Shown: positions 11,546 to 49,190 of the stretch, in pieces
Position numbering within the stretch: the first letter of the stretch is position 1
Layout: every line of letters begins with the position of its first letter
From: Liolophura sinensis
Lineage: Eukaryota > Mollusca > Polyplacophora > Chitonida > Chitonidae
Direction of reading: 5' to 3'
Length of the DNA: 64,000 nucleotides
Assembly (NCBI RefSeq): GCF_032854445.1
Contig: NC_088306.1
Location: forward strand, 26,445,764 to 26,509,763
Notes under the pieces: model-generated
Seen by the model: only the letters and a program-made list of their open reading frames with translations
The model's database searches: none
Told to the model about the DNA's origin: nothing
Program-made: the position numbers and the translations under genes

Positions 11546-14500
11546 GTAAGGGTTTCCCTGATAACCCTCTAGAGTGCTCTGTTTCCAGTGTTACCGTTAT
11601 TAGTCCCTAACAGTACCAGGCTGGAGGTGCAGGTGGAGGCACTGTAGGTTTACGCCATGTCTGTCAGCCCCTTCATCTGCCTGTCCATCCATCATGAGCT
11701 TTTCTCTACTTCTTTTTTAGAATGGTTCTTTGTATTTATTGAATTAGGACTTTGTACATGTACATGGCTCCATCATTTTTGGTTCATTTCGTCAGTATAA
11801 CTGCCACAATTAAATGTTTTATTGCAGAAATTTGTTTGAGGTTTTCACCTCCCAATGTGTAATATAAAACACTGCTTTACACATCCATACATACATGTAT
11901 GCTGTGTATAGCACAGCTATTCTTAGTATTGTGTATAGTACAAAGGTACAATGTACATGTCCGTTAATAACCCATTTTATGTAGTTTTAGAACTACATGT
12001 ACTGTAGGCCGTAAGCGGGAAGATCTTCCAGCAACCTGCGGATGGTCGTAGGTTTCCTCCCACCATAATGCTGGCCGCCGTCATATAAGCGAAATATTCT
12101 TGAGTATGGCGTCAAACACCAGTCAAATAATAAACAAATACATGTACTGTATATCACCTAAAGTTTAGCTTTTTTCAAGTGGCATATTTTGCTAGATTCT
12201 GGTTGATTTTATCCACCTTAGAGGGACATCTAAGAGTTACTTGTGAAGAATAATTAATGTCTTAAGAGAAAAACAGTGTTGTCATCAAAGTATCATTTCC
12301 AGACGTTTACATGTATGCCCTTCTGAAAGCACATTTTACATATATTTTTACATGTCAACTGGTAAAATACGGCTGTTCTATTTATAAATTTTAAAATGCA
12401 CCTTTCAGAATGTAATTAATCTTGAGCATGTAAATTGTTCTGAATAAATAAGTGTTTACATGAAAGTGTATTTGGATCATTTGGTGGCCCAATGCCCAAG
12501 TGACTGCTGCAAACATGCTTATTATATACACTGAATAATGATCTAACTCTCACCTGATTTAATGATGCATTTACTATTCATGCTGTGCATTGTTTGTGTT
12601 TGTATTGCACATGGATATAGACCATAAAGTTTGTATTGTGCTTGGATATAGCACGTAAAGTTTGTACTGCACATGGATATAGCTTGTAAAGTTTGTATTG
12701 TACATGGATATAGCCCGTAATGTTTGTATTGCACATGGATATAGCCTGTAAAGTTTGTATTGCACATGGATATAGCATGTAAAGTTTGTATTGCACATGG
12801 ATATAGGCTGTAAAGTTTGTATTGTATATGGATATAGCCTGTAAAGTTTGTATTGTANNNNNNNNNNNNNNNNNNNNNNNNNNNNNNNNNNNNNNNNNNN
12901 NNNNNNNNNNNNNNNNNNNNNNNNNNNNNNNNNNNNNNNNNNNNNNNNNNNNNNNNNNNNNNNNNNNNNNNNNNNNNNNNNNNNNNNNNNNNNNNNNNNN
13001 NNNNNNNNNNNNNNNNNNNNNNNNNNNNNNNNNNNNNNNNNNNNNNNNNNNNNNNNNTATTGTACATGGATATAGCATGTAAAGTTTGTATTGCACATGG
13101 ATATAGGCTGTAAAGTTTGTATTGTATATGGATATAGGCTGTAAAGTTTGTATTGTGCATGGATATAGCATGTAAAGTTTGTATTGCACATGGATATAGG
13201 CTGTAAAGTTTGTACTGTACATGGATATAGCCTGTAAAGTTTGCATTGTGAATGGATATAGCCTGTAAAGTTTGTATTGCACATGGATATAGCCTGTAAA
13301 GTTTGTACTGTACATGGATATAGCCTGTAATGTTTGTATTGTACATGGATATAGCCTGTAAAGTTTGTATTGTACATGGATATAGCCTGTAAAGTTTGTA
13401 TTGTATATGGATATAGCCTGTAAAGTTTGTATTGCACATGGATATAGCCTGTAAAGTTTGTACTGTACATGGATATAGCCTGTAAAGTTTGCATTGTGAA
13501 TGGATATAGCCTGTAAAGTTTGTATTGCACATGGATATAGCCTGTAAAGTTTGTACTGTACATGGATATAGCCTGTAATGTTTGTATTGTACATGGATAT
13601 AGCCTGTAAAGTTTGTATTGTACATGGATATAGCCTGTAAAGTTTGTATTGTGTATGGATATAGCCTGTAAAGTTTGTATTGCACATGGATATAGCCTGT
13701 AAAGTTTGTACTGTACATGGATATAGCCTGTAATGTTTGTATTGTACATAGATATAGCCTGTAAAGTTTGTATTGTACATGGATATAGCCTGTAAAGTTT
13801 GTATTGTGCATGGATATAGCCTGTAAAGTTTGTACTGCACATGCATCTGGCATTGTCTGTGTTCAAGTTCATCTTACCATGAACTTCACTGCACAGTTAG
13901 TAGGCCTGATATTAAACTCACTTATTGGTATAAGTTCATGTATATATATGTTAACAGTACATGTGAATAGGGTGCACATAAATACCAAGGGTCACTTTGT
14001 GTCACCATGTCCCAGATTGTTCATTGCTCTAACTGCCATTGGGATCTAAATGCCAACCAATAGCGTTATACCTACAAGTACATGTACATGTATACCTTAT
14101 TTCGCCTAAAGTTTAGCGTTTATCAAGTGACGCATTTTGCTTGATTCAGGCCCTGGGATCATGAAGCAATCTTATACCTAAGCCAAAATTTCAAATCACT
14201 TTCAAATTGTTATTTCTTACGTAACAAGGGGCCTCCGTGGCTCAGTTGGTTAGCGCGCTAGCGCAGCGTAATGACCCAGGAGCCTCTCACCAATGCAGTC
14301 ACTGTGAGTTCAAGTCCAGCTCATGCTGGCTTCCTCTCCGGCCGTAAGTGGGAAGGTCTGACAGCAACCTGCGGATGGTTGTGGGTTTCCCCAGGGCACT
14401 GCCCGGTTTCCACCCACCATAATGCTGGCCGCCGTCGTATAAGTGAAATATTCTTGAGTACGCCCTGAAACACCAATCAAATAAATCAATAAATCTTACG

Positions 14501-19100: not shown

Positions 19101-22100
19101 CACGGTCATCAGCTGTACGTCTACCCCGTCCATCTCATCCTCAGCCTCATCACCCTGGCCTGCTGTGTGGCCGCCACTGTCATGTTTGATAGGCTGTGGC
19201 GTTCAGAATGGACAGTACTGAAGTTATCGCTACAGGTACGTTTTATACATATGTTGCATTCTCAGAAGTGGGCCAACAGCCACGAATCTTGGAATGCTGT
19301 AGATTTATGTCGCTGTTTACAAATAGTATGACTGTGTACTTCATTTGGGTTGAGGGGCATCCATGGCCGAGGGGGTTAGCACGCCAAAGCAGCGCAATGA
19401 CCCAGGAGCCTCTCACCATTGTTGTAGTTCAAGTCCAGCTCATGCTGGCTTCCCCTGCGGGTGTATGTGGGAAGGTCTCCCAGCAGCCTGCAGATGGTGG
19501 CGGGTTTTCTCCAGGTTCTGCCTGGTTTCCTCCCACCATAGTGCTGGCCGCCATCATATAAGAGAATTATTCTGGAGTATGGCGTAAAACACAAATCAAA
19601 TTAATAAGTGAAATTCATTTGGGTTGAGTTATTGTACTTTGTACTTTGTACTCCTAGCTCAGTGAGGAAAGCAGGAGAGTATTGTCATTGTAGGTACGCC
19701 TCTGTCTGTCCATCTCTCACACTACATGTTAGCAAAATATCTGTAGAAATTTGTATTGCATCAATATATATAGCATACACTTTGTTCTTGTACTGTAGGG
19801 GAAAATATGTACACATACCTGTTTATGTCACACATGCAAAAGTTTGTGAGTTGTTTGTCAGAGGCCAGTGGTTTACTCCATCAGGTTTAATACAGTCATA
19901 AAGCTGAACACTGTTCTGTAACTAAACAATTCGCTCTTAAACCCCAACTGGAATTTCCTTCATCCTCAGATCACTGGCCCATTTCTTCATATTGGAGCTG
20001 TAATATTGATGACTCTGATGACATGGATCATTGCTGGCAACTGGCTGCAGCTCTCTCATAAAGGTAAGCGCTACCTACTGTGTCCTTCCTGTAAGAACAC
20101 ATGAACATTTCCAAGACAGTTGAGCATAAAGTACAGTAGGAGACTTGTGAACCTTGGACCCCTTTTCTCAACGCGAACATGTGGACGTGTGCTCTGTGTA
20201 CTGCATGTAAGAGTACATGGACATTTTGTGAACCCCTTATTTTTCACAAAGCACACCTGTATACATGTAGTCTGTGTATTGCATGTAAGAGTACATGAAC
20301 AATTTACTGACGCCTTTTTAGTATGCATGTAAATGTGCAACATGTGTATAAGTTTGGGGCGGGGCCTCCATGGATCAGTTGGTTAGCACGCTAGCGCAGC
20401 GTAATGACCCAGGAGCCTCTCAACAGTGCATTCCCTGTGAGTTCAACTCCAGCTGATGCTGGCTTTCTCTCTGGCCGTACGTGGAAAGGTCTGGCAGCAA
20501 CCTGCGGGTGGTTGTGGGTTTCCCTCAGCCTCTGCCCCGTTTCCCCCCACCATAATGCTAGCTGCCGTGGTATAAGTCAAATATTCTTGAGTACGGCACC
20601 AATCAAGTAAATAAATAAATATAAGCCTGGTGCAGTATTTCACATAGCACGGGTATATACATTGTACACCAGTAGCTTTGTAGTGGTGACACAGTGTGTA
20701 CTACATGTGTCTTGGATACGGGAGGTTATGGTACATATAAATGTACATCTGTGTATACTGGGAATGTTAGGCACATATTTGCCATACCTTTGAAACGTGA
20801 TAAGAGAAGGTTCTAATATACCCACTGAATACATGCCGACATGGCAGATGTACATGTGGATAGCCTGGTCAGTTGGAATTGCCCAGTTTATCAAATGTGC
20901 ATTCTTGTAATTTGCATTAATGATCTGATTATATTGGGGAAAAAACATTGAAGAGATATTTATGACGCTGTTTTTTTTCTGTTAGCTTCTCCCTCTTTTC
21001 ACACCTGGACAGGTAAGTTTGTTAGCCATTGGTGTTTGGGAATCTCCCTCCCCCACGGTTGAGTTTACTTGATTTTTCCCCCAAAACCTTGTTTTGATGT
21101 TTCAGGGTTTCTGAAGTGCATAACTTTTGCATTTACCTTTGTAGACGGAGTCGGCAGTGCTATAGAGCTGAGTCGTTATTGATGAATGTTTTAATACCTG
21201 AATTTTTAAGTTTTTACAGCTTTTAAGTTCATAGAGCCCCTTTTAGTATATGTAGAATCCCTTTCACATACATGACATACGTCTGGCATGGTATAATTGT
21301 GAGAATGATCTTCATTGTGGTTTGCTTTGTTTCCCGATTTGCCCCAGCATATATTTGTCTTTTTGGTGATTGTTTTTTATTCCCTATTATCTAACATGTA
21401 GTGGGTACATTTTTTAACAGGTTTAATATTGTTTTTTTTTTTTTTTACTTTTTTAATATTATTATTGTTTGTTTTTTTTTTGTTTTTTTTTTTGGACATT
21501 GACTGTAATAATCCATGTGTATGTCATAATGCCGTTTAGCCATACAGAATTTGCAGAATGCTCCCAGTGACTAATGATGTGCATGTAGATTATCGAAGTT
21601 GCCATGACAGCGCGTTTTGAGGACGTTCGTTTTTTATGCCAGTGAAGTGAATTTTAGTGTAGTGGTTAATGAACAAGAGGTCACTGTAAGTGGGGCTATT
21701 GGAACAAAATAAATTGCTCTCTAGCTGATTGATTTTATAAGTGAAATGCAGAGGGTGTATGGATTTCCTCCGAGAAATTTAACTGAGATAACACTTGATG
21801 ATGATTTTGTTTACATGGAGATTGTTCCGTTACTCTCTATGGTTTCAGTGTTAATAAATCATGCATGAGGCTTTTGTATAGCTGTCTATAACCTTATGGT
21901 TCACTATGGTCTGTAATTTGTTCAAAAGGCCAGGGCTCGTGTCTCTTTGATGTCGGAATGTCATGCTGTTAATGTTTACTATGTATAATGGCTCTTTTAT
22001 CTGGTAGTAGATTGCGTCATATAGACATGACAGGTAACAAACTGGTACAAATACGGATTATGGAACATGACATTAGACAACTTCAGTCGTCAGCAATAGT

Positions 22101-25100
22101 TTATATACTGTATGTACATGAACATGCAAATAAATATAAATGAACTAAACCAATAGTGAATTGTCTTTATGAAAAAAGCTGCCACAGCCATGTAACCTAG
22201 CTTATAACCCAGCCTGTAGACAATACTTTTGCTTCAGTCGTTCATCATGTTGAGCATTGTTAATTACATGTAACAAAGGGTAAAAAAATTGTTAATTACA
22301 TGTAACAAAGGGTAAAAAATTGTTAAAAATTGTTAATTACATGTAACAAAGGGTAAAAAATTGTTAATTAAACTATCCATGTTTAAATAGGCTGTAGCAG
22401 AGACTTCCGACAAAATATCCATATTCACTATGAAACAATCAAATATATTTTCTATGTTTGACAAGAATAGCTTAAACAATAAGATTTCAGTAAGCGTCAT
22501 ACTTGTAACTATATTACTTATTATAGTCACTGTTAAATGATTCTAAGGGGCCTCCGTGGCTCAGTTGGTTAGCGCTCAAGGGCAGCGTAATGACCCAGGA
22601 GTTTCTCACCAATGCGGTCACTGTGAGTTCAAGTCCAGCTCATGCTGGCTTCCTCTCCGGCCGTAAGTGGGAAGGTCTGGCCGCAACCTGCGGATGGTCG
22701 TGGGTTTCCCCTGGCTCTGCTCGGTTTTCTCCCATCATAGTGCTGGCCGCCGTCGTGTAAGTGAAATATTCTTGAGTACGGCGTAAAACACCAATCAAAC
22801 AAATAAATAAATGACTCTAATGTTTGAATATTAAGCTGTAATGCAACCTGGTTTATATATTATATAAATTTTTGGAATCTTTGCACCAATATTGAATAGT
22901 AATACTTGTATGATACCTGATAAGGCTGGTATTTTATGAAATCTGGCTATTCTGAAATATTTTGGCTAAAATACTTGATTGCACTAATGCACTGGTCAGT
23001 TTTTTGCCAAAAGTCTCTGGTATGCCCTCTTTAATTAACATCGTTTATGAAACAATGCATCAGTTATATCCACTCGTAAAATTATGTACAGATAAATTTT
23101 TTATTTGATAAATATATATACATTAGTTCCTCAACTTTTAGTGCAGTTTATGCACCTTTTTAACTTGATTTTGAGGAAACAGGCAACATTGGCTGGATTG
23201 GCCAAGCTCTGGCCTTCACAAAAGGTATAGTTGTGTCAATCTGTGCAGAATAAAGCCTTCAGAATATGCTTGAATAAATATCTTCCCCAAATATGCAAAA
23301 AGGTTGAAGAATTGCTGTATCATATTATATTTCCCTTTTTATATTTTGAATCATTCTGTTGTTGGTGACTGTAGAAGTTCTCCCCCCCCCCCCCCCCCTC
23401 CCAGCATGAGTGACTTATTTCCGTGTTTCAAATTTCCTCACTTCAACTTTTCCTAGTGTCCATTCTACCCTTTTCTAATGTACAACATTGCGTGTTGACA
23501 CTTTGTATGTCTAGCCACCTTTCAAAATCATTTGAGGAAGAAGGGAAATAGGTTTTGGCCAGGATTGGCAAGATATAGCTATTTCAATGTACATACGGGT
23601 CTTCATGTTGGTCATGATTGTCAAGATATCTGCTTATTTCATGGCGGAATGGCTGTAGTACATGTGCATTAGACATTGCACTAGTGGCATGTGAAGAATT
23701 CCAACCAGAAGTGAAGATAGGGCTACAAAAAATCTCTTTCACTGGACTGGCATCCAGCAGTTATTTCAGGGCTTTTGTTATCTTTTTAAGTAAAAGCTGT
23801 ACCCTGGAATAGCCAGCTACATGCCAGAGAATTGAATGAAGGTAAAATGGGAGCTTGGTCAAAGTAGACAGTCACATGTAGATGCTCAGAGTTTTACAGC
23901 CACATGTAGCTGCTCAGAGTTTTACAGCCACGTGTAGCTGCTCAGAGTTTTACTGAAGTAAACAGCCACATGTAGCTGCTCAGAGTTTTACTAAAGTAGA
24001 CAGCCACAGGTAGTTGCTCAGAGTTTTACTAAAGTAAACAGCCACATGGAGCTGCTCGGAGTTTTACTAAATTAAACAGCCACATGGAGCTGCTCAGAGT
24101 TTTACTAAATTAAACAGCCACATGGAGCTGCTCAGAGTTTTACTAAATTAAACAGCCACATGGAGCTGCTCAGAGTTCTACTGAAGTAAACAGCCACATG
24201 AAGCTGCTCAGAGTTTTACTAAATTAAACAGCCACATGGAGCTGCTCAGAGTTTTACTAAATTAAACAGCCACGTGTAGCTGCTCAGAGTTTTACTAAAT
24301 TAAACAGCCACCTGTAGCTGCTCAGAGTTTTACTAAAGTAAACAGCCACATGTAGCTGCTCAGAGTTTTACTGAAGCAAACAGCCACATGTATCTGCTCA
24401 GAGTTTTACTGAAGTAAACAGCCACATGGAGCTGCTCAGAGTTATACTAAAGTAAACAGCCACATGGAGCTGCTCAGAGTTTTACTGAAGTAAACAGCCA
24501 CATGTAGCTGCTCAGAGTTTTACTGAAGTAAACAGCCACATGGAGCTCCTCAGAGTTTTACTGAAGTAAACAGCCACATGGAGCTGCTCAGAGTTTTACT
24601 GAAGGAAACAGCCACATGGAGCTGCTCAGAGTTTTACTAAAGTAAACAGCCACATGTAGCTGCTCAGAGTTTTACTGAAGTAAACAGCCACCTGCAGTTG
24701 CTCAGTTTTACTATAGTAAACAGCCAGGTGTAGCTGCTCAGAGTTTTACAAGAGTAAACAGCCACATGTAGCTGCTCAGAGTTTTACTAAAGTAAACAGC
24801 CACATGCAGTTGCTCAGTTTTACCAAATTAAACAGCCACATGGAGCTGCTCAGAGTTATACTAAAGTAAACAGCCACATGGAGCTGCTCAGAGTTTTACT
24901 GAAGGAAACAGCCACATGGAGCTGCTCAGAGTTTTACTGAAGTAAACAGCCACATGTAGCTGCTCAGAGTTTTACTGAAGTAAACAGCCACATGTAGCTC
25001 CTCAGAGTTTTACTGAAGTAAACAGCCACATGGAGCTGCTCAGAGTTTTTCTGAAGTAAACAGCCACATGAAGCTGCTCAGAGTTATACTAAAGTAAGCA

Positions 25101-28100
25101 GCCACATGGAGCTGCTCAGAGTTTTACTAAAGTAAACAGCCACATGTAGCTGCTCAGAGTTTTACTAAAGTAAACAGCCACATGTAGCTGCTCAGAGTTT
25201 TACTGAAGTAAACAGCCACATGGAGCTGCTCAGAATTATACTAAAGTAAACAGCCACATGTAGCTGCTCAGAGTTTTACTGAAGTAAACAGCCACATGGA
25301 GCTGCTCAGAGTTATACTAAAGTAAACAGCCACATGGAGCTGCTCAGAGTTTTACTAAGTAAACAGCCACCTGCAGTTGCTCAGTTTTACTAAAGTAAAC
25401 AGCCAGGTGTAGCTGCTCAGAGTTTTACAAGAGTAAACAGCCACATGTAGCTGCTCAGAGTTTTACTAAAGTAAACAGCCACATGCAGTTGCTCAGTTTT
25501 ACTAAATTAAACAGCCACATGTAGCTGCTCAGAGTTTTACAAGTGTAAACAGCCACATGGAGCTGCTCAGAGTTTTACTAAAGTATATAGCCACATGTAG
25601 CTGCTCAGAGTTTTACTAAAGTAAGCAGCCACATGTAGCTGCTCAGAGTATTACTAAAGTAAACAGCCACATGTAGTAGGCTGCAGGTAGCTGATAAATG
25701 TGCCATCTAATAAAGCCTCCTGTTTAGACTTCTTGGCATTACGCTACAGAACTGCCTCATTTGTTCACATTTTATCTGTACGTGTTTGTGTTTGGTTTCA
25801 GTGCTGAAGACAGTGTGGTTGTGTGTATGAGGGTGATGATAGTATTATACCTGTGACTTACTAAACGCTACAGAACTGCCTCATTTGTTCACATTTTGTC
25901 TGTACGTGTTTGTGTTTGGTTTCAGTGCTGAAGACAGTGCGGTTGTGTGTATATGTGGGTGGTGATAGTATTATACCTGTGACTTACTCAACAGGTGTGT
26001 GTTTGGTTTCAGTGCTGAAGACTGTGTGGTTGTGTGTATATGTGGGTGGTGATAGTATTATACCTGTGACTTACTCAACAGGTGTGTGTTTGGTTTCAGT
26101 ACTGAAGACAGTGTGGCTGTGTGTATATGTGGGTGGTGATAGTATTATACCTGTGACTTACTAAACAGGTGTGTGTTTGGTTTCAGTACTGAAGACAGTG
26201 TGGTTGTGTGTATATGTGGGTGGTGATAGTATTATACCTGTGACTTACTAAACACTACAGAACTGCCTCATTTGTTCACATTTTATCTGTACGTGTTTGT
26301 GTTTGGTTTCAGTGCTGAAGACAGTGTGGTTGTGTGTATGAGGGTGATGATAGTATTATACCTGTGACTTACTAAACGCTACAGAACTGCCTCATTTGTT
26401 CACATTTTGTCTGTACGTGTTTGTGTTTGGTTTCAGTGCTGAAGACAGTGTGGTTGTGTGTGTATGAGGGTGATGATAGTATTATACCTGTGACTTACTA
26501 AACGCTACAGAACTGCCTCATTTGTTCACATTTTGTCTGTACGTGTTTGTGTTTGGTTTCAGTGCTGAAGACAGTGTGGTTGTGTGTGTATGAGGGCGAT
26601 GATAGTATTATACCTGTGACTTACTAAACGCTACGGAACTGCCTCATTTGTTCACATTTTGTCTGTACGTGTTTGTGTTTGGTTTCAGTGCTGAAGACAG
26701 TGTGGTTGTGTGTGTATGAGGGCGATGATAGTATTATACCTGTGACTTACTAAACGCTACAGAACTGCCTCATTTGTTCCCATTTTGTCTGTACGTGTTT
26801 GTGTTTGGTTACAGTGCTGAAGACAGTGTGGTTGTGTGTATATGTGGGTGGTGATAGTATTATACCTGTGACTTACTAAACAGGTGTGTGTTTGGTTTCA
26901 GTACTGAAGACAGTGCAGTTGTGTGTGTACATGAGAGTGATGATAGTATTATACCTGTGACTTTCTAAAGTGGTGTATGTTTGGTTTCAGTGCTGAAGAC
27001 AGCGTGGCTGTGTGTGTATGTGGGTGGTGATAGTATTATACCTGTGACTTACTAAACATGTTTGTGTTTGGTTTTAGTGCTGAAGACAGCGTGGTTGTGT
27101 GTATATGTGGGTGGTGATAATATTATACCTGTGACTTACTAAACATGTTTGTGTTTGGTTTCAGTGCTGAAGACAGCGTGGTTGTGTGTGTACATTGGGG
27201 TGATGACAGTATTATACCTGTGTCCTCTGGTCATCAACTCCCCCTGTGTGGTTACAGTCACAGATCTCCCACCCAAGCCTGAGGTCATAGGTCATAGAGG
27301 GGCACCCGCTGTAAGTTTATAATCATATTTATTTGTACAAATTAATTTTCATTTTGTATATTTTTAAGCCTACATCACATTTGGTATTCAACCTGTTCAA
27401 GGTACATGTGAAAGACATCTAAAGTGAAATGCTTCTCTGTATTGCTGAATTGGGATTTAACACGTTATGGCAAAGAAAATTCTAAGTGGAATTAGTTATT
27501 TAACTAAATGTTTGTTACACATTGCCTAGGAAAATAGATGAATATATTTTTTCTCCAGCCAAGTAAACTGTTTGTTATACAACATCAGATGGCCTGGGGG
27601 GCGACCATGGCTCAGTTGGTTAGCGCACTAGCGCAGCGTTATGACCCAGAAGCCTCTCCAATTTGGTTCCTGTGAGTTCATGTCCAGCTCATGCTGGCTT
27701 CCTCTCCAGCCGTAAGTGGGAAGCTCTGTCAGCAACCTGGGGATGGTCGTGGGCTTGCCCCGGTTTCCTCCCACCATAATTCTGGCGGTCGTCGTATAAG
27801 TGAAATGTTCTTGAGTATGGCGTATAACACCAATCAGATAAATAAAAGTAAATAAATCAGATGGTCTGTTGGAACCCTTTGTGGTCGAGTCAATGTACAA
27901 ATCAGTGATGTTGCATTCATATTTTGTGTGTGTAGTTCATTTGAAAGTCCATTCAGTGAGTGCATTCATGGCTTTTTATGTACTCTGTATTTCTGCAATA
28001 TACATGTACTTTTGTTCTGTACTTTCCCACCAGGTGGCTCCAGAAAACACAATCCTCTCCTTCCAATCTGCAGCTAGTCGTAACGTGTGGGCATTCGAAA

Positions 28101-47900: not shown

Positions 47901-48376
47901 CAATATATGTATACACACACCTCATGACTCTTCATTTTCATTTGACTGAATAATTGATAACTACGACGTAAAACCCCAAGTATACATACATACATACATA
48001 CATACATATTTCTTTATAATTTTTTACCTAATTCTACTTAGTCAACACTGCCATGAAGCGTATCATTTTCAGCCATTTAAGCATTTACAAGAACAATTGG
48101 TTTTGAACCACAACTCAAGTAAACTGACAAGAGGCTAGATTCCTCCAGTCACACGTGACCATTTTTCAACCATTAAACCGTCGTGACTTTACGCTCTATG
48201 CAGCAGACTATTATACTTCATATAGCAGTTCTCACCGATACAAGTGTAGACCATCTTCCTCCTGATAGAACGCTTAAAGAAACAGCTACAGCCGTCACAG
48301 CAGAACACTCCATAGTGCTTCCCGTAACTCTTGTCACCACAGACCTTACAGGACACAGGCACCGGCAGCGTTCGTC
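41765..48376 (-). CDS. NR2E: NR2E-type nuclear receptor, six coding exons (5' end uncertain, frameshift in the last exon)
   Basis: Ligand-regulated or orphan transcription factor of the TLX/PNR group. Exons in coding order: 48236-48376, 47259-47351, 45752-46072, 44093-44319, 43546-43660, 41765-41999; phases agree at every junction. Finger 1 is [14 protein letters not shown]...C-x2-C and finger 2 spans exons as C-x5-C-x9-C-x2-C. Next come an AVQEERGPR hinge and a Pro/Ser-rich linker. The ligand-binding domain shows [16 protein letters not shown] (helices 4-5), [22 protein letters not shown] and [13 protein letters not shown], ending ILSDM. The P-box reads CDGCSC where most relatives have CDGCSG. 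As I recall the family, CDGCSC and [13 protein letters not shown] are closer to NR2E5/6 than to TLX or PNR. One base appears missing near 41890-41900. The start codon is not in these exons. Confidence 0.88.
42250..42805 (+). repeat. duplicated block, copy 2, with roughly 96-bp tandem expansion
   Basis: 42260-42430 repeats 40630-40850. Then about four units of roughly 96 bp follow, containing GCGCCATGTTGGAGAAACC, CACGACTGTCCGTCACCCG and GAGCTCATATGGTTAAAGA. A single unit is present in the other copy. Confidence 0.75.
43546..43660 (-). CDS. NR2E: nuclear receptor exon 5 (ligand-binding domain, helices 6-8)
   Basis: [20 protein letters not shown] and [18 protein letters not shown]. Acceptor TATTTGCAG, donor CAAG|GTCAG, phase 0 in and phase 1 out. 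The motif [11 protein letters not shown] matches the TLX TEFACLKCIVT region. Confidence 0.88.
43740..43905 (+). mobile_element. degenerate SINE-like element
   Basis: Head GGGGCTCAGGTGGTTAAAG and a tail GAGGGCGTCGCGTAAGTGAA...AACGCCAATCA that shares the SINE-A 3' module. The body is unlike SINE-A. Confidence 0.4.
44093..44319 (-). CDS. NR2E: nuclear receptor exon 4 (ligand-binding domain, helices 1-5)
   Basis: [20 protein letters not shown] and [20 protein letters not shown], followed by [12 protein letters not shown]. This is the nuclear receptor signature region. Acceptor CCTTCCAG, donor AGG|GTAGGC. Confidence 0.9.
44530..44815. repeat. CTACCTCGCTGTCTGG tandem repeat inside an inverted repeat
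   Basis: Several copies of CTACCTCGCTGTCTGG at about 44650-44720. They are flanked by purine-rich arms (GAGGTAACAAGGTAGAGAGG at left, GAAGCGAGGTAACGAGGTAG at right) complementary to the centre. Confidence 0.75.
45159..45226 (-). mobile_element. SINE-A fragment
   Basis: Short inverted piece: GTGGGGGGAAACCCACGACC and ATCCGTAGGGTGTTG. Confidence 0.6.
45752..46072 (-). CDS. NR2E: nuclear receptor exon 3 (C-terminal extension and hinge)
   Basis: Starts [16 protein letters not shown], the C-terminal extension of the DNA-binding domain. A Ser/Thr/Pro-rich linker of about 90 residues follows. Acceptor TGCCGTGCAG, donor GTTG|GTAAGT, 321 nt, phase 1 to phase 1. Confidence 0.88.
47003..47219 (+). mobile_element. 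SINE-A, head truncated
   Basis: Begins GAGCACGCCAGCGCGGAGCA. B box GGGTTCAAGTCC, body, and tail GCGGCGTAAAACACCAATGA. The 3' end lies 40 bp from the nuclear receptor exon 2 donor. Confidence 0.8.
47259..47351 (-). CDS. NR2E: nuclear receptor exon 2 (second zinc finger)
   Basis: [18 protein letters not shown] and [13 protein letters not shown]. It supplies the last three cysteines of finger 2. Acceptor TGTCACAG, donor ATG|GTAAGT, 93 nt, phase 1 to phase 1. Confidence 0.93.
47656..48008 (+). mobile_element. SINE-B, full length
   Basis: tRNA-like head with CTAATGGTTAAAGCG and GGGATCAAACCCGGG, body GCTGAGAGGTTAGAGCAAGG, and tail ACTACGACGTAAAACCCCAAG plus (CATA)n. It lies within the receptor intron. 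Confidence 0.75.
48236..48376 (-). CDS. NR2E: nuclear receptor DNA-binding exon (first zinc finger)
   Basis: [36 protein letters not shown] and [10 protein letters not shown]. All four finger 1 cysteines are present. Acceptor TTATTCTAG, donor TCG|GTGAGA, 141 nt, phase 1 to phase 1. The same splice site plus exon start is repeated upstream at 48377-49190. Confidence 0.94.
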
Positions 48377-49190
48377 CTAGAATAACAAAATACAAATCAT
48401 TACAAAGTCCTCCTCGTAACTCTTGTCTCAACAGGCCTTTTTAAAAGACAGAGGCATCGGCAGAGATGGTCCCTGCAACAACAAAACAAAAACACCACAA
48501 AGTGCTTCCCGTAACTCTTGTCTCAACAGGCTTTTTACAAGACAGAGGCATCGGCAGAGATAGTCCTGCAACAACAGAACAAAAACACCACAAAGTACTT
48601 CCCGTAACTCTTGTCTCAACAGGACTTTTACAAGACAGAGGCATCGGCAGAGATAGTCCTGCAACAACAGAACAAAAACACCACAAAGTGCTCCCCGTAA
48701 CTCTTGTCTCAACAGGCCTTTTACAAGACAGAGGCATCGGCAGAGATGGTCCTGCAACAACAGAACAAAAACACCACAAAGTGCTTCCCGTAACTCTTGT
48801 CTCAACAGGCCTTTTACAAGACAGAGGTATCGGCAGAGATAGTCCTGCAACAACAGAACAAAAACATCACAAAGTGCTTCCCGTAACTCTTGTCTCAACA
48901 GGCCTTTTACAAGACAGAGGCATCGGCAGAGATGGTCCTGCAACAACAGAACAAAAACGCCACAAAGTGCTTCCCGTAACTCTTGTCTCAACAGGACTTT
49001 TAAAGGACAGAGGCATTGGCAGAGATAGTCCTGCAACAACAGAACAAAAACATCACAAAGTGCTTCCCGTAACTCTTGTCTCAGCAGGCTTTTTACAAGA
49101 CAGAGGCATCGGCAGAGATGGTCCTCCAACAACAGAACAAAAATGCCACACAATGCTTTCCGTAACTCTTGTCTCCACAGACCTTAGAGG
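48377..49190 (-). repeat. 93-bp tandem array of the zinc-finger exon acceptor plus exon start
   Basis: Each unit on the minus strand carries TTCTGTTGTTGCAG followed by a degraded exon start (CTCTGCCGATGCCTCTGTCT, then GAGACAAGAGTTACGGGAAG). Copied exon starts map to 48472, 48565, 48658, 48751, 48844, 48937, 49030 and 49123; the real one is 48376. The period is 93 after a first step of 96. A two-base insertion after TCTTGTAA shifts the copies out of the finger frame. The outermost copy (49162 on) keeps CCACAGACCTTA as in the genuine exon. Frames of 241 and 300 residues on the two strands are by-products of a 3n period. Confidence 0.92.

Follow-up and report, generated by a model that had tools for sequence, protein, structure and literature searches.

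A minisatellite on the intron 5/exon 6 boundary of a GDPD5-like chiton gene carries 13 decoy splice acceptors and is probably passive

Mirages are minisatellite-like duplications of exon-intron boundaries described from amphioxus globin genes, in which they copy the 3′ splice boundary (BflGb6) or the 5′ splice boundary at the exon end (BflGb9) (PMC3087553). In the accessible part of that report, the BflGb6 copy numbers are 6 and 3 with units of 150-160 bp, and RT-PCR suggests regular splicing of the lancelet globins. Further lancelet mirages, according to the sections at hand, are those of PGBD5 (PMC3902484) and Adh3, and one has been reported for troponin C. A literature search for mirages, with most subscription papers lying outside its reach, returned cephalochordate cases only. 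Minisatellites have been connected with splicing in other animals as well: in the human 6-16/IFI6 gene a pair of repeat units lying downstream serves as splice donors (PMC4526556), and in C. elegans intronic minisatellites (CeRep25B) have been linked to multiple alternative splicing (PMC4039745), as far as the available portions of these two papers go.

The gene described here lies in a window of 64,000 nucleotides, which is the whole stretch of Liolophura sinensis DNA that was analysed (Table 1). Pieces of five of its exons, when joined, gave a computed match to the GDPD family at 65.8 bits, beginning at the HRGAP motif of exon 6 (HR onwards), while the more specific label GDPD5 is one that we presume for this gene. 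The reading frame of exon 6 is open and intron 5 preserves the phase; the donor of exon 6 scores only 2.3, owing to the CT at positions -2/-1. Of the 7.1 kb of intron 5, about 3.3 kb is tandem repeat, namely a 38-bp minisatellite and the decoy array that follows it. Since tandem repeats are error-prone and the HiFi coverage is 14x according to the accessible text of PMC11068029, an assembly artefact has to be weighed, as does a non-functional gene. However, the mean HiFi read of 8,347 bp given in the same text exceeds the 1.5-kb array and most of the copies differ from one another, and the open exon, the conserved phase and the family match argue against loss of function, so that we judge this explanation to be extremely improbable. 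A single match was obtained in the genome (609,464,459 bases in 632 contigs; one purged haplotype).

Table 1. Positions of the features discussed, numbered from the first letter of the window (a slash marks the exon-intron boundary)
Feature	Positions	Strand	Description
Exon 5, GDPD5-like gene	19970-20063	+	31 codons + 1 nt; donor AAAG/GTAAGC
Intron 5, GDPD5-like gene	20064-27164	+	Phase 1, 7101 nt
Separate 38-bp minisatellite	23868-25676	+	About 46 copies; adjoins the decoy array on its upstream side
Splice-boundary minisatellite	25741-27222	+	Acceptors of 13 decoys and of the true site; unit length about 87 or 126 nt
Stop-free 69-nt pseudo-exon	25926-25994	+	From decoy acceptor to CAG/GTGTGT
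Second stop-free 69-nt pseudo-exon	26013-26081	+	
Intronic end of the decoy closest to the true site	27049-27077	+	TTTTAG; 1.3 bits vs 6.1 for the true site
True exon 6, GDPD5-like gene	27165-27310	+	Acceptor TTTCAG/TGCTG, donor CCCGCT/GTAAGT; HRGAP motif at the end
Second acceptor array	48377-49185	-	93-nt units, 8 decoys; before the nuclear-receptor DBD exon
Last intron bases of the nuclear-receptor decoys	49124, 49031, 48938, 48845, 48752, 48659, 48566, 48473	-	
True nuclear-receptor DBD exon	48236-48376	-	141 nt; zf-C4, 51 bits

The first-pass annotation of this DNA had described the boundary as copied 13 times in front of the intact exon 6, and this was borne out: 13 decoys and the true acceptor were located, with the decoy copies ending at 25801, 25925, 26012, 26099, 26186, 26312, 26436, 26562, 26688, 26814, 26901, 26990 and 27077 and the true one at 27164 (27164/27165). 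Its motif counts were also reproduced, TTTCAG being found in 11/13 decoys, TTACAG in one (26814) and TTTTAG in one (27077). The acceptors are spaced by 124, 87, 87, 87, 126, 124, 126, 126, 126, 87, 89, 87 and 87 nt; the claim that these spacings are mostly multiples of three holds for 10/13 of them and breaks down over the array as a whole, as the first decoy is 1363 nt from the true site. The 87-nt unit consists of 31 intronic and 56 exonic nt, and in the 126-nt unit the intronic part is 39 nt longer (70 in total). The duplicated part of the exon is 58 nt long (27165-27222; 56 in most copies), likeness to the decoys ends at 27222 and the last unit is continuous with the intact exon 6. As in mirages, the unit thus spans the boundary of a real gene, with 31 or 70 intronic and 56-58 exonic nt, and the splice signal is retained, the AG being kept in 13/13 decoys. 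The branch-like TTACTAAAC is exact upstream of 9/13 decoys and of the true acceptor; it is replaced by TTACTCAAC at two decoys and by TTTCTAAAG at one, and the first decoy has none of them. The distance from the branch-like motif to the AG is 61 nt in the 124/126-nt copies vs 22 nt in the others, and TTACTAAAC occurs 10 times on the + strand of the window, always inside the array. Tandem Repeats Finder (TRF) scores of 624-1413 exclude a chance origin.

The inner copies are the most homogeneous: copies 6-9 are 99-100% alike, a near-identity that points to recent exchange among them. The largest differences are those of copy 11, whose likeness to the others is 81-90%, and of the true copy, at 81-86%, a figure that a few columns outside the unit pull down; copies 12-13 are intermediate, at 82-94%. 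The concerted evolution with divergent edge copies that is known from mirages is therefore found in this array, with the exception that copy 1, which lies at the opposite edge, has not diverged and is 100% identical to copies 6 and 7.

The strength of the sites was computed with splice-site matrices re-estimated from this genome's surveyed exons (92 acceptors and 108 donors); these sites were called by script beside protein-family matches, and the percentiles are accordingly approximate. At 6.1 bits the true acceptor stands at the 35th percentile, and 12/13 decoys score 5.3-6.3 bits and are at most 1 bit away from it, the decoy at 27077 alone falling short by more than 1 bit, whereas upstream of the array, in 20100-25740, just one site attains the score of the true acceptor. 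As predicted from the local motif, intron 5 has a dozen comparable acceptors thanks to the array. When the decoys are read straight on, an in-frame stop is reached in 13/13 frames, in 10 of them as a TAA within TTACTAAAC (two of these ten cross one or two further units before stopping), and the alignment showed that 12/13 copies are 2 or 4 nt short of the true exon sequence, with loss of the exon frame. The variant N-termini of exon 6 that had been put forward from the first reading thus find no support in the case of direct read-through, and were rejected for it. The same numbers could be read as those of a regulatory decoy, that is, an array which acts as a competitor for the splicing machinery and sends part of the transcripts into NMD-prone forms carrying a stop, with copy number tuning the output of the GDPD5-like gene: the AGs are intact, the strength of nearly all the decoys is comparable to that of the true acceptor and, with stops in every frame, their use would be either damaging or regulatory. 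We consider such a role unlikely, in view of two results detailed below, namely that the same architecture is present at acceptors and donors of unrelated genes and that the splice dinucleotides are not significantly conserved.

Four copies have a CAG/GTGTGT 69 nt past the decoy acceptor, of which two are stop-free and keep the phase and two hold a stop. The stop-free ones might be cassettes that are spliced in and add 23 residues before exon 6, all the more as their acceptors rank at the 25th-37th percentile, and the CAG/GTGTGT donors at the 31st, of the called sites. Nevertheless, the frame within the copies differs from that of the true exon and is opened solely by the change of TTACTAAAC to TTACTCAAC, which looks like one copied mutation, and the presence of a stop in the two other 69-nt copies also counts against the cassettes, whose use we regard as very improbable.

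The GDPD5-like gene is not the only one in the window with such an array, since a second one precedes the DNA-binding exon of a nuclear-receptor gene. Here, the true acceptor scores 5.8 bits and is outscored by 7/8 decoys (11.5-13.6 bits): six are at 11.5, the nearest, 48473, is the strongest with 13.6, and the outermost scores 3.9. One of these copies was missed by the ungapped probe and was added from other analyses; it is absent from the dinucleotide test reported below. Just upstream of the true exon a stop closes its open frame (48189-48440), which means that a working receptor requires the weaker, true acceptor. The idea that the decoy nearest to the true site is weakened was rejected as a general account: it fits the GDPD5-like gene (27077, 1.3 bits) and fails at the nuclear receptor, where the nearest decoy is the strongest.

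The frequency of boundary arrays was surveyed with TRF in 128 stretches (220,220 bases, with about 700 nt of flank on each side) containing 152 matched exons, and the array calls were then read by sequence. The exons were chosen by protein-family match, using 58/65 nuclear-receptor rows (the two in the window, the decoy-copy row of L027 and the four weakest were omitted), 62/138 kinase rows, in which short open frames were favoured to avoid single-exon genes, 18/19 ABC rows and 14/14 ALDH rows. Two arrays were dropped before counting: that of L112, which begins 12 nt inside the intron, and that of L123 (G000:C11:29421743-29423892, - strand), which covers the coding end and the stop codon and no splice site. 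The latter is a 79-bp array running from the last ALDH coding codons across the stop codon and beyond, and it indicates that boundary arrays are not limited to splice sites. Chaperonins were added as a fifth family with 16 of 18 loci (L133 and L134 were omitted as long single-exon matches); of 57 rows, 30 were taken as lying within the used loci and 26 had enough flank.

In the first four families, arrays crossed the donor at 7/152 exons (L023, L027, L035, L070, L079, L093 and L127) and the acceptor at 2/152 (L055 and L058), with no significant difference between the two kinds (Fisher P 0.17). In the chaperonin set there were donor arrays at 3/26 exons (L139, L147 and L150) and an acceptor array at 1/26 (L148); counting an extra row, C1:56786587-56786745 in the array-free L145, would add a miss and give 4/27. 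Overall, boundary arrays are present on 13/178 sampled exons (9/152 and 4/26, about 1 in 14), a figure that holds for these five families rather than for a random sample of genes. The largest ones are those of L023, with 19 decoy donors (18 with GT), and L035, with 17 (17 with GT). The GDPD5 array is therefore neither unique nor the record in its own genome, and the earlier suggestion that its copy number has no precedent does not single it out, the lancelet mirages being of the same kind (BflGb6, with 6 and 3 units, in the accessible part of PMC3087553).

In L150 (G000:C1:72036829-72039978, - strand), the last ~90 nt of a CCT-like chaperonin exon and its donor are repeated six more times with spacings of 88-111 nt, and 3/6 decoy donors match the true donor at 9.2 bits. 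In L148 (G000:C8:53410569-53413982, - strand), a short chaperonin exon is flanked by two arrays: upstream, 41-bp units run to the acceptor AG and barely enter the exon (12 probe hits, 11 with AG), and downstream a 27-bp array of about 43 copies lies just past the exon.

The scores of decoys and true sites were compared over 11 arrays with 85 hits, a set that includes a few off-register hits: 12 exceeded the true site by more than 1 bit, 31 fell short of it by more than 1 bit and the other 42 differed from it by no more than that. Decoys of the weaker class were found in L055 (8/8), L035 (10/17) and L023 (6/19), among others, while at L079 the true donor (4.0 bits) was outscored by 5/6 hits (5.9-7.9). 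Strong decoys are thus common, yet they are not the rule in every array. The decoys of the nuclear receptor and of L079, being stronger than the true sites, show that motif strength alone cannot set the choice of site; in some genes, as the 31/85 weaker decoys suggest, it may do part of the work. A frame-keeping design was also ruled out, as the units are mainly multiples of three in 5/15 arrays (GDPD5, nuclear receptor, L023, L139 and L147), the third that is given by chance.

As for the placement of tandem arrays (period of at least 15, length of at least 50 bases), they cover 7.2% of the survey stretches. Coverage is about 8-10% at 300-700 nt from the exon matches vs 0.95% of the matched exon bases, and in the 60-nt flanks it is 1.3-1.5% upstream and 6-8% downstream of the matches. 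The sparseness in coding sequence and the density in distant flanks fit a wide landing of arrays followed by purging from coding sequence. With 92 called acceptors, the acceptor-crossing edges correspond to the density of edges in introns (2 seen, 1.03 expected, P 0.28), whereas with 108 called donors there are more donor-crossing starts than this density predicts (7 seen, 1.71 expected, P 0.002), which speaks against a plain random landing. This excess is a lead, given that the 60-nt span used in the test was picked after the cases had been seen and that edges may be stacked at exons because growth into coding sequence is blocked.

By the same definition of arrays, the window itself (1-64000) contains 8,780 bases of tandem array, or 13.7%, vs the 7.2% of the survey. 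A 31-bp minisatellite in it (12598-13843) is split in two by a run of 200 N (~12856-13057). Elsewhere in the genome, contig C99 (G000:C99:8348-102844) matches COX1 seven times at intervals of about 15.5 kb, which amounts to mitochondrial genomes joined head to tail and is probably an assembly artefact, and contig C632 (15,209 bases) has one COX1 match. In the mitochondrial contig, ND3-ND2-COX1-COX2-ATP6 share a strand and CYTB-ND4L-ND4-ND5 are read from the opposite one, where COX1 was matched by a model and the other genes are putative assignments; such a gene order is that of chitons and vetigastropods, and on its account a lancelet origin of the DNA was rejected.

Conservation of the splice dinucleotides was compared with that of random neighbouring columns in 8 arrays with 82 hits. 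There were 4 minority bases in the dinucleotides vs a mean of 9.2 in the random columns (a fraction of 0.12 of the draws had 4 or fewer), and 2 vs 7.1 (fraction 0.10) when four off-register hits were removed. Retention thus leans to conservation, and as the difference is not significant, neither erosion nor selective upkeep is demonstrated. The possibility that decoys erode and so protect the gene found no support in the dinucleotides, which are well kept, though 31/85 hits are more than 1 bit below the true site.

Among the options raised in the first-pass annotation, that of a passive minisatellite seeded at the splice site was the best supported, given that the same architecture recurs in the survey and in the second gene of the window, that units in multiples of three are at chance level and that the dinucleotides are not significantly better conserved. 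We think it probable that the array is a passive minisatellite which was seeded where intron 5 meets exon 6 and is tolerated, with the innermost site winning by exon definition. A tandem duplication across the boundary would start the minisatellite, and further duplications would push the duplicate acceptors into the intron, with the last unit staying joined to the intact exon. The acceptor would be chosen jointly with the exon 6 donor: with 27165 the exon is 146 nt long, while the decoys would give 233, 320, 409 nt and more, and the sole decoy yielding the 233-nt exon (27077) is weakened. The shorter exon (146 nt vs at least 233 nt) and the weakening of the nearest decoy both favour 27165, and transcripts are expected, as judged from the DNA, to use it almost always. 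The order of transcription is opposite in the two kinds of array, true acceptors coming last and true donors first; together with the stronger decoys, this implies that neither motif strength nor a rule of first transcribed, first used fits both kinds. Pairing across the exon would instead select the innermost site at acceptor and donor arrays alike. On the other hand, exon 6 has a low-scoring donor, which counts against a strong exon definition. The array is most likely without a selected function; it is one case of a process that is common in this chiton genome and is of the same kind as the lancelet mirages.

Two broader readings go beyond this. According to the first, chiton minisatellites would grow preferentially outward from splice boundaries, splicing would be almost wholly by exon definition and the arrays would act as heritable tuners of expression. 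Several per cent of the exons would then have 2-20 near-exact decoys, some stronger than the true site, and arrays of the GDPD5 type would leak low, copy-number-dependent and fast-changing amounts of poison or 69-nt cassette transcripts. It is the excess of donor-crossing starts that suggests it, and we see it as a long shot. The second, proposed for the lancelet globins in the accessible part of PMC3087553, takes the arrays as intermediates of intron gain or exon creation, with copies that are later recruited or leave new introns. It concerns an evolutionary consequence rather than a present function; some copies do have both acceptor- and donor-like sites, but no recruited copy was seen at the GDPD5 locus, and for this array we find it quite improbable.

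The passive boundary minisatellite, which remains our preferred reading, has consequences for the study of splicing. The choice of the spliceosome among near-identical sites has mostly been studied with engineered duplications. The chiton genome offers many natural duplicated sites: they lie in genes that are unrelated to one another, affect acceptors as well as donors, and include decoys that are equal to the true sites or stronger. Since exon definition, transcription order and motif strength make different predictions at these arrays, they could be separated by RNA-seq. Repeat growth seems to have left the boundary arrays as tolerated by-products, which provide a natural test of splice-site choice. 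Mirages may more widely be a consequence of minisatellite-rich genomes, which bears on intron gain and on differences in copy number among individuals.

Compared with the systems described so far, the GDPD5 array resembles C. elegans CeRep25B in that intronic minisatellites lie close to splicing decisions; in the accessible part of PMC4039745, the CeRep25B repeats carry regulatory motifs and are not described as copies of an exon boundary. With human IFI6 it shares a minisatellite that gives one exon repeated splice sites, which are used donors in that gene, as far as the available text goes, and candidate acceptors here. The likeness is closest with the amphioxus mirages, which, in the portions of PMC3087553 and PMC3902484 at hand, are tandem boundary copies, many with AG/GT kept; as in BflGb6, the inner copies are homogenised and the edge copies are not (PMC3087553, same portions). 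The chiton arrays differ from what these portions describe in their mollusc host, in their copy number (13 in the GDPD5-like gene and up to 19 elsewhere, vs 6 and 3) and in their unit length (37-126 bp vs 150-160 bp in BflGb6), and regular splicing is backed by RT-PCR in the lancelet, whereas the chiton arrays are known from DNA sequence. The kind is therefore already known from lancelets and the chiton adds a new phylum and an unusual number: what is new is the occurrence of mirages in a mollusc, their commonness within one genome and the presence of decoys stronger than the true sites.
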